Origin: Myxococcus stipitatus
GTDB taxonomy: Bacteria > Myxococcota > Myxococcia > Myxococcales > Myxococcaceae
NCBI RefSeq assembly: GCF_037414475.1
Contig: NZ_CP147913.1
Location: 9,248,501 to 9,312,500, forward strand
Direction: 5' to 3'
DNA: 64,000 nucleotides
Shown: positions 1 to 58,244 of the stretch, piece after piece
Layout: each line of letters opens with the position of its first letter
Position numbering within the stretch: position 1 is the first letter of the stretch
Notes under the pieces: model-generated
The model's input: the letters and a program-made list of their open reading frames with translations, nothing else
Databases searched by the model: none
Told to the model about the DNA's origin: nothing
Position numbers and translations under genes: made by a program

Positions 1-100
1 CCACCGGCATGTTGTAGAGCGGGCTGTCCGGCTCGAGCTGGTTGAGGAACAAGAGGCGGTGCTGCGCGAACGACAGTGGCAGTGTGCTCCCTCGCGCATG
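1..100 (-). other. NRPS A module 7: start of a condensation domain, cut by the window edge
   Basis: The last visible residues, LPLSFAQHRLLFLNQL followed by a PLYNMP block, are the opening C1 motif of an ordinary L-accepting condensation domain. At least one more module therefore lies beyond base 1. The motif normally reads QQRLWFL; here it is QHRLLFL, a mild variation. Confidence 0.9.
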
Positions 101-57300: not shown

Positions 57301-58244
57301 ACGGAGATGTCATCCTGCCCGGAGTAGCGGGCCAGCAGCACCTGCCACGCCGCCAGCAGGGCCATGAAGGGCGTGGCGCCCTCCTTCTGGCAGAGGGCCT
57401 TCAGCTCGTCGGAGGCCTGCCTGGAGAGGCGCACCGGCACCGTGGCGCCACGGAAGGACTGCACCGCGGGGCGGGGGCGGTCCGTGGACAGCTCCAGCAC
57501 CTGCGGCGCCCCGGAGAGCTGCTGGCGCCAGTAGCCGAGCTGGGTCTCCAGCACCTCGCCCTGGAGCCAGCCGCGCTGCCACACCGCGTAGTCCACGTAC
57601 TGGAGGCCAGGCTCGGGGAGGGGAGACGGGCGGCCCGACAGGAAGGCGTCGTAGAGCGCCGCGAACTCGCGGATGAAGACGCCCATGGACCAGCCATCCG
57701 AGACGATGTGGTGCATCGTCAAGAGGAGGACGTGGTCCTGGGGCGCGAGCCGGAGCAAGGTGCCACGGATGAGCGGGCCCTGGACGAGGTCGAAGGGCCG
57801 CACGGCCTCCTCGCGCGCCAGGCGCAGCGCCTCCCGCTCACGCGAGTCCTCGGGCAGGTGGCCCAGGTCCACGATGGGGAGGGTGACGGAGCCCGCCTGC
57901 GCGATGACCTGGACCGCGCTCTGCTGGCCGGGCCGGAACGTGGTGCGCAGCGACTCGTGGCGGCGGACGACCTCGGACGCGCTGCGCTCCAGCGCCGCCA
58001 CGTCCAGGACGCCTTCCAGCCGGACGGCCGCGGGGATGTTGTACGCCACGCTTCCCGGGTCCAACCGGTCGAAGAACCACAGCCGCTGCTGTGAGAAGGA
58101 GAGCGGATAGGCCTCCGCGCCGCGCGGTTGGACGGGGATGGCCGGCTGCTGGGCGCGCGTCGACTTCTCGCGCAGCTGCCGCATGAGCTGTTCCCGCTTG
58201 TCCGCGGGGAGGGAGGCGAGACGCTTGAGAATGTCACTGCTCAT
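27351..58244 (-). CDS. NRPS B: nine-module synthetase with terminal thioesterase
   Basis: A 10,297-residue elongating and terminating NRPS. Order: short N-terminal helix-like segment (about 1-40), C-A-T-E, C-A-T (eight times), thioesterase (about 10050-10290). By-eye codes predict (D-X)-Ser-Asp-Gln-Gln-Gln-(basic?)-Glu-Leu. The first domain is an ordinary condensation domain ([10 protein letters not shown]) with no loading domain, so a donor must come from another protein, most simply NRPS A. The thioesterase has GGWSFGG (Ser about 10131), ALIDSH and GDHYTLL. The ATG at 58244 has GGAG nine bases upstream and follows the P450 stop by 89 bases; the stop overlaps the exporter start. Three consecutive modules are near-identical copies. 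An open frame of this length with every core motif intact argues for a functional gene. Confidence 0.97.
27400..31265 (-). other. NRPS B module 9: C-A-T-TE, predicted Leu and product release
   Basis: The condensation domain has [11 protein letters not shown]. The adenylation code D-A-W-F-L-G-H-V-V (K) is one change from the leucine code DAWFLGNVVK. The carrier is [15 protein letters not shown]. The thioesterase (about 28100-27400) has GWSFGG and a late GDHYTL histidine motif; it releases the chain as a free acid, or as a ring if it finds an internal nucleophile such as the Ser of module 2. Which one occurs cannot be read from sequence. Confidence 0.9.
29911..30981 (-). repeat. Near-identical condensation-domain block of B-module 9, matching B-module 8
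   Basis: This 1,071-base block matches 33115-34185 almost perfectly, 3,204 bases away (a multiple of 3). It covers most of the condensation domain from before HHIVSDG to the start of the C-A linker. The adenylation domains on either side are unrelated in specificity (Glu versus Leu), so the C domain was copied on its own. Confidence 0.88.
31330..34455 (-). other. NRPS B module 8: C-A-T, predicted Glu
   Basis: The adenylation code D-A-K-D-L-G-V-V-D (K) is the glutamate code, as in NRPS A module 4, from which the core is nearly indistinguishable. The condensation domain ([11 protein letters not shown]) is nearly identical to that of module 9 over about 1.07 kb. The module therefore looks like a mosaic of a shared C domain and a shared A core. 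Confidence 0.9.
31840..33149 (-). repeat. Glu adenylation core of B-module 8, partner of the copy in NRPS A
   Basis: Second copy of the block described at 6981-8290. The ends fall in the C-A linker and just after the [12 protein letters not shown] motif, leaving the C-terminal A subdomain and the carrier outside the match. Confidence 0.85.
34500..37635 (-). other. NRPS B module 7: C-A-T, unresolved, possibly a basic residue
   Basis: The condensation domain has [10 protein letters not shown]. The adenylation core starts FFFDVSMEQ and gives the code D-V-E-D-V-A-A-V-Y (K). I do not recognise it as a published code; Glu at position 239 with Asp at 278 would favour a positively charged side chain such as Lys, Arg or Orn. 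The carrier is [13 protein letters not shown]. Confidence 0.8.
37690..40805 (-). other. NRPS B module 6: C-A-T, predicted Gln (third of three)
   Basis: Same code DAWQFGLIDK, HHIVSDA condensation motif and [10 protein letters not shown] carrier as modules 4 and 5. Landmarks are 3,174 bases from module 5. The repeat continues into the first residues of module 7's condensation domain, then stops. Confidence 0.92.
40870..43985 (-). other. NRPS B module 5: C-A-T, predicted Gln (second of three)
   Basis: Same code as module 4 (DAWQFGLIDK), same HHIVSDA condensation motif and same [10 protein letters not shown] carrier. Nearly identical to its neighbours with scattered substitutions, for example GGEALLSES where modules 4 and 6 have GGEALPSES. 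All core motifs are intact. Confidence 0.92.
44050..47160 (-). other. NRPS B module 4: C-A-T, predicted Gln (first of three)
   Basis: The adenylation code D-A-W-Q-F-G-L-I-D (K) equals a published glutamine code. The condensation domain has HHIVSDA instead of the usual HHxxxDG. The carrier reads [13 protein letters not shown] with a serine where FFELGG is usual. From about 46760 leftward the sequence is one copy of a triplicated block; the first third of the condensation domain differs from the other two copies. Confidence 0.92.
47220..50370 (-). other. NRPS B module 3: C-A-T, predicted Asp
   Basis: The condensation domain has MHHIVSDG. The adenylation domain lacks the usual FDAS block and reads FVADLGNT instead, a form known from Asp/Asn-activating domains. 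The code D-L-T-K-V-G-H-V-G (K) differs by one conservative change from the aspartate code DLTKVGHIGK. The carrier is [13 protein letters not shown]. Confidence 0.88.
50450..53560 (-). other. NRPS B module 2: D-accepting C-A-T, predicted Ser
   Basis: The condensation domain opens with [13 protein letters not shown] and has HHLLLDGWS, the D-donor type expected after the epimerase. The adenylation code D-V-W-H-V-S-L-V-D (K) belongs to the well-known serine family DVWHLSLID(K). The carrier is [18 protein letters not shown] serine hydroxyl here would be a possible macrocyclisation nucleophile. Confidence 0.9.
53700..58244 (-). other. NRPS B module 1: N-terminal segment, C-A-T-E, D-configured residue of unresolved identity
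   Basis: The first 40 residues ([22 protein letters not shown]) are a charged amphipathic stretch, possibly a docking element that recognises the upstream synthetase. The condensation domain has MHHIVSDG and is the L-donor type. The adenylation code D-A-L-H-L-G-C-L-F (K) equals that of NRPS A module 3. The carrier is LGGDSI; the epimerase shows [10 protein letters not shown]. Boundaries are approximate. Confidence 0.88.

Follow-up and report, generated by a model that had tools for sequence, protein, structure and literature searches.

The locus examined here raises the question of whether two nonribosomal peptide synthetases (NRPS A and NRPS B), whose genes are arranged with the starter gene (A) 3' of the thioesterase-bearing gene (B), as in non-collinear clusters such as that of polymyxin, act as one assembly line or make two separate products. 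The window, which is the whole stretch of 64,000 nucleotides analysed, corresponds to C1:9248501-9312500 of a Myxococcus stipitatus genome (G000) that consists of a single contig of 10,311,252 bases and contains 111 condensation-family matches. Two giant NRPS ORFs were also noticed elsewhere in this genome, at G000:C1:1776475-1823769 (15,764 aa) and C1:3-43721 (14,572 aa or more, since the contig start truncates it), and the first C domains of the two are nearly identical.

Layout of the locus and of its two synthetases

The Pfam matches of each gene showed that the order given in an earlier note on this DNA (B, exporter, reductase, glycosyltransferase, A) was correct, and that the full order, with every gene on the minus strand, is TEII, AKR, P450, B, ABC, ADH, GT87, A. 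The first three genes, which that note did not mention, stand in identical order in the related genomes G008 and G013. The genes are listed below in window coordinates.

62022..62873, minus strand: free (type II) thioesterase (TEII), PF00975; syntenic, 94% in G013 and 93% in G008
60857..61909, minus strand: aldo/keto reductase (AKR), PF00248; syntenic, 94% in G013 and 92% in G008
58334..60154, minus strand: cytochrome P450, directly upstream of B, PF00067 (E 1.1e-100)
27351..58244, minus strand: NRPS B, 10,297 aa, [C-A-T-E]-[C-A-T]x8-TE
25705..27354, minus strand: ABC exporter, PF00005 and PF00664; its start overlaps the stop of B
24593..25618, minus strand: zinc-type alcohol dehydrogenase-like protein (ADH), PF13602, PF00107 and PF08240
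23162..24511, minus strand: GT87 membrane glycosyltransferase, PF09594 (E 1.2e-27); orthologues found
1..22834, minus strand: in-window part of NRPS A, whose gene runs on to window position -3085

The P450 ORF is 606 aa long here in comparison to 479 aa in G008 and G013, and its true start probably lies further in than the ORF start. The start of the dehydrogenase was chosen to give 341 aa, matching the ORF of G008. NRPS A is 8,673 aa long when counted from an upstream GTG, and is probably 8,639 aa from the ATG at window position 22834, which is conserved in four genomes.

The gene for NRPS A extends 3,086 bases past base 1 of the window and ends at C1:9245415 (window -3085), so that its complete layout could be read as FAAL-ACP-[C-A-T]-[C-A-T-T]-[C-A-T-E]-[C-A-T]x4. 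The presence of a fatty acyl-AMP ligase (FAAL) and an acyl carrier at its start was borne out by PF00501, PF23024 and PF00550 matches in window 20738-22936, and from these domains NRPS A is predicted to load a fatty acid and to be a FAAL-initiated lipopeptide synthetase. The concern that NRPS A might carry a terminal thioesterase of its own beyond the window did not hold, as the domain scan beyond base 1 found neither a thioesterase nor a reductase domain at its end, which consists of C-A-PCP followed by about 30 residues, a short acidic tail ending in VDPDELSRMMAELEEEP. For NRPS B, the description as starting with a bare condensation domain and ending with a thioesterase stood in so far as C comes first and TE last, and failed in that 43 residues precede the C domain. 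The two proteins are thus built of C-A-T modules with a TE solely at the end of B. The expected 15 complete modules and the start of a 16th were found inside the window, nine in B and six in A, and the assembly line totals 16 modules, seven in A and nine in B.

The domains and modules referred to below are as follows; the two E-type domains were assigned from their position between T and C.

58116..58244, minus strand: N-terminal docking-type head of B, from comparison with heads of relatives
53652..54968, minus strand: E-type domain of module B1, condensation-family match 9302152-9303468
37635..47165, minus strand: three tandem modules B4-B6, code DAWQFGLID, DNA 92-95% identical
34455..37634, minus strand: module B7, code DVEDVAAVY, missing in G008 and G013 and found in G012
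27411..28067, minus strand: terminal thioesterase of B, PF00975 (E 6.3e-39)
21089..22834, minus strand: FAAL, loading domain of A, PF00501 and PF23024; orthologues 97, 92 and 91%
20831..21022, minus strand: acyl carrier domain after the FAAL, PF00550, residues 639-702 of the scanned stretch
14267..14713 (approximate limits), minus strand: tandem carriers T-T of module A2, motifs at residues 2775 and 2853
9713..11011, minus strand: E-type domain of module A3, condensation-family match 9258213-9259511
7076..8338 (approximate limits), minus strand: A-core of module A4, code DAKDLGVVD, apparently copied from B8
3248..6424, minus strand: module A5, code DALWLGGTF, without counterpart in G008 and G013

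The doubled carrier of module A2 was also observed in G008, G012 and G013. The residue codes obtained by alignment are, for A, DILQLGMIW, DAWTAAAVC, DALHLGCLF (with E), DAKDLGVVD, DALWLGGTF, DAWTAAAVC and DAWTAAAVC, and for B, DALHLGCLF (with E), DVWHVSLVD, DLTKVGHVG, DAWQFGLID three times, DVEDVAAVY, DAKDLGVVD and DAWFLGHVV. Apart from the first of these, and from DALHLGCLF and DVEDVAAVY, which match no residue name, we take the codes to stand for Phe, Glu, Val, Ser, Asp, Gln and Leu, the names given in code tables. The peptide predicted in this way is Gly-Phe-x-Glu-Val-Phe-Phe-x-Ser-Asp-Gln-Gln-Gln-x-Glu-Leu; for G008 and G013, the prediction has Ser where Glu-Val stands here and lacks the x that precedes the last Glu. 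A search of publications for the code strings gave support for Gly only, most matches being due to chance: the Gly code DILQLGMIWK is given in the accessible part of PMC12283262, which supports Gly for the first module of A. Selethramide was considered as the product and dropped, since the same part of that paper places it in Burkholderia.

Gene order in relatives and direction of the change

Seven other clusters were found in which the FAAL gene precedes a B-like gene, with a P450 gene between them in four. The order is FAAL-NRPS, P450, B-like gene with TE, ABC in G002, G009b and G022, the B-like part of G009b being divided between two overlapping ORFs; it is FAAL-NRPS, P450, B-like gene in G014, where the detected ORF showed no TE. 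The B-like gene (TE seen) directly follows the FAAL gene in G033 and G010b, and in G020b the FAAL gene stands directly before a B-like gene that is cut by the contig end. This count of seven leaves out the G009 locus at 11.69 Mb, G026, G022b (where the contig end truncates the first NRPS and no FAAL is seen) and the single-protein cluster G020:C9, which encodes one 17,740-aa FAAL protein carrying its own TE region and does not fit the pattern.

The order TEII, AKR, P450, B, ABC, ADH, GT87, A is shared by G000, G008 and G013. G012, which is listed in the same genus and has a FAAL 97% identical, shows it too, though with gaps, for the part that reaches from the end of B to A; on a different contig, its B head comes after the P450 gene. 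The P450 found between the NRPS genes of the relatives is 40-41% identical to the P450 here. Because the seven relatives are colinear and the P450 still stands before B here, the order with A after B looks like a derived permutation, chiefly by parsimony, as the tree support is weak: the pair of G033 adjoins this group in the FAAL and B-head trees with support of only 0.53 and 0.56. The weak supports near the relevant nodes leave some room for the reverse polarity, in which the relatives acquired their colinear order from an ancestor with the permuted one, but we regard this as improbable, since the permuted order occurs in one orthologous group only (G000, G008, G013, and G012 as assembled) against seven colinear loci.

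Some features of the surrounding genes were recorded in addition. In G002, G009b, G022, G014 and G022b, a P450 gene separates an NRPS gene lacking a TE (in G022b a fragment at the contig end) from the NRPS gene that comes next. The profile scan of genome contigs with the GT87 alignment gave two loci. Homologues of GT87 lie beside other NRPS genes in L054 (G026:C30:98957-100324, 49%) and L048 (G009:C1:11692343-11693698, 48%), one of the two overlapping the stop of a TE-ending NRPS; GT87 may thus be a recurrent companion of such NRPS clusters. Between GT87 and A, a promoter-like element was found:

23152..23180, minus strand: promoter-like TTTCCA-17-TAGAAT, a consensus match only

The element ends 318 bases 5' of the ATG of A and was found once in comparison to a mean of 0.0 in 50 shuffles; G012 and G013 retain it, as does G008 in part. 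It would allow separate transcription of A.

Transfer of the chain from NRPS A to NRPS B

The conclusion that A hands its chain to B is supported by three lines of sequence comparison, namely the kinship of the first C domain (C1) of B, the types of the protein tails and heads, and the gene order of the relatives. In the C-domain tree, which covers the first set of loci retrieved, the sister group (0.994) of C1 of B is made up of C3, an internal elongation domain of A, and its orthologues. The nearest distances of C1 of B are 0.63 to a C domain after T and 2.87 to a C domain after E, which fits a C1 that accepts its chain from a module without an E domain, as the last module of A is.

The combination of an acidic tail and a KR-rich head, as in A and B, was found at 8 of 13 adjacent NRPS junctions, the list being made up of the pairs that our own domain models detected in the fetched regions. 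Three of these eight (G002, G009b and G022) are closely related to one another. Judged by eye, neither type is present at four of the other five junctions, and the fifth (C1:3775038 to 3778307) is a borderline case. Three more heads of this kind follow an acidic tail, at G019:C72, G009:C1:11715913 and G011:C818. The tails of several relatives have a second '..LL..' element that is absent from the tail of A. The docking-domain family described in the available part of PMC9113145 was considered for the head of B, which is only 43 residues long. The head survey took in 23 of 30 loci, the seven left out being weak matches (E 0.0014-0.0032), and the head motif was found in 16 of the 23 and not in the remaining seven. 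B-type heads come after a P450 gene in nine rows of these 23 loci (four orthologues included) and, judged by eye, after an ABC-ATPase-like gene in two. Since B-type heads thus also follow non-NRPS genes, head type alone cannot name the partner.

The possibility of another starter NRPS feeding B was addressed in the regions of the own genome around the 111 condensation matches. No such rival, which the earlier note had named as a finding that would speak against its reading, was found there, the remaining FAAL proteins being free, equipped with a TE, or provided with a tail of another type. The NRPS at C1:1851683-1866028 does end in an acidic tail of this sort, but the gene directly after it encodes an acceptor of its own whose head matches, and the NRPS at C1:3775038-3778310, a borderline case, has its own neighbour too.

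The main alternative to a joint product is that the chain of A is hydrolysed off or released with the help of the free thioesterase and that B starts its own chain by a starter-C mechanism, giving two products. The A and B genes are indeed not adjacent, a free thioesterase is encoded at 62022-62873, and other C-first synthetases ending in TE are present in the genome. Against this, C1 of B groups with internal elongation C domains (in a tree that holds no reference starter-C domains and thus describes neighbourhood only), B carries the head type found on acceptors, and B-like genes follow FAAL genes in the relatives, so that we consider two products quite unlikely. Still less probable is a third synthetase encoded elsewhere that acts between A and B and brings the peptide above 16 residues; the genome has many NRPS genes, as the 111 condensation-family matches indicate, but no orphan NRPS with a fitting head and tail was seen in the fetched regions, and the FAAL gene adjoins the B-like gene in the seven colinear loci.

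It is therefore very likely that A and B are the two proteins of a single FAAL-initiated lipopeptide assembly line, which makes a product of 16 residues; that A has a loader and no TE, and B a TE and no loader, was counted in favour of this single line. In the mechanism that we infer from the sequences, the FAAL of A would activate a fatty acid and load the ACP, A would add residues 1-7, and the last carrier of A would hand the chain to C1 of B by contact of the acidic C-terminal tail of A with the N-terminal helical head of B. B would then add residues 8-16, its TE would release the product, and the ABC protein would export it, while the P450, the dehydrogenase and GT87 may decorate it. The architecture, the lack of a TE on A, the sequences of tail and head, and the gene order in this genome and the relatives are direct observations, and the residue identities, the tailoring roles, the hand-over and the direction of the move are inferred from them. 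The biosynthetic order suggested by the earlier note, the reverse of gene order, is thus supported by C1 kinship, tail and head types, and the relatives. A move of the A gene within the cluster would have brought the starter gene to its place behind the terminator gene, and the reversed order is a gene permutation, not an unusual mechanism.

Module changes and comparison with known systems

The two complete orthologous clusters, G008 and G013, have 6 + 8 = 14 modules, with a Ser code at A4, without the Val module and without the DVEDVAAVY module; G012 stands outside the module counts on account of its assembly gaps. In 80-residue windows, the C part of A4 is 75-91% and its end 74-79% identical to the orthologous Ser module, and the middle of A4 is 90-98% identical to B8 of the own genome in comparison to 69-90% to the Glu modules of G008 and G013. 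As the middle of A4 resembles B8 and its flanks resemble the Ser module, this lineage seems to have acquired the Glu A-core of A4 as a copy of that of B8, by transfer from B into A, and its best match to B8 of the own genome suggests that the A and B genes exchanged sequence. Among themselves, the three A domains of the Gln modules share 96-97% identity, in comparison to 85-87% with those of G013, as expected if they were homogenised within the lineage, and this points to concerted evolution. Module A6 has a C part that is not close to its counterpart in the relatives. An exchange of A-cores is described for the desotamide and wollamide synthetases in the available part of PMC9205934, where, as would be the case here, the A-core swap alters the substrate and the C-A interface is kept, whereas the exchange proposed here would have taken place between the two partner synthetases of a single cluster.

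Among known systems, the FAAL-NRPS clusters of the relatives (G002, G009b, G022, G014, G033, G010b and G020b) are alike in having a FAAL gene followed by a C-first gene, in the tail and head type at the listed junctions, and, in several, in the P450 and the ABC exporter; they differ in being colinear and in their module numbers. Ramoplanin and mannopeptimycin are long peptides or lipopeptides that receive a sugar from a membrane glycosyltransferase, and their pathways are actinobacterial, with different genes. A partial literature search found no publication on the present cluster.

The polymyxin cluster, pmxA-pmxB-pmxC-pmxD-pmxE, is stated in the accessible part of PMC3708778 to be not collinear, its modules acting in the order pmxE-pmxA-pmxB. 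According to that part of the paper, it has the same succession of a TE-bearing gene, ABC transporter genes and then the starter NRPS gene, and with this equal layout the gene order itself is not new. Unlike the system described here, it has a starter C domain in place of the FAAL-ACP, ten modules in three NRPS proteins of Paenibacillus, and five named genes without a P450 or a glycosyltransferase (PMC3708778, same part).

Taken as a whole, we lean towards the reading that one Myxococcus group makes a family of lipopeptides with 14 and 16 residues, possibly glycosylated, on an assembly line whose genes were reordered only after it had arisen, with a change of one module per protein and the copying of an A-core from B to A. 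For structure prediction, gene order alone would mislead here, and the colinear relatives allow the correction to be made. The 14- and 16-module orthologues, along with the traceable A-core copy, would provide a natural example of assembly-line change.
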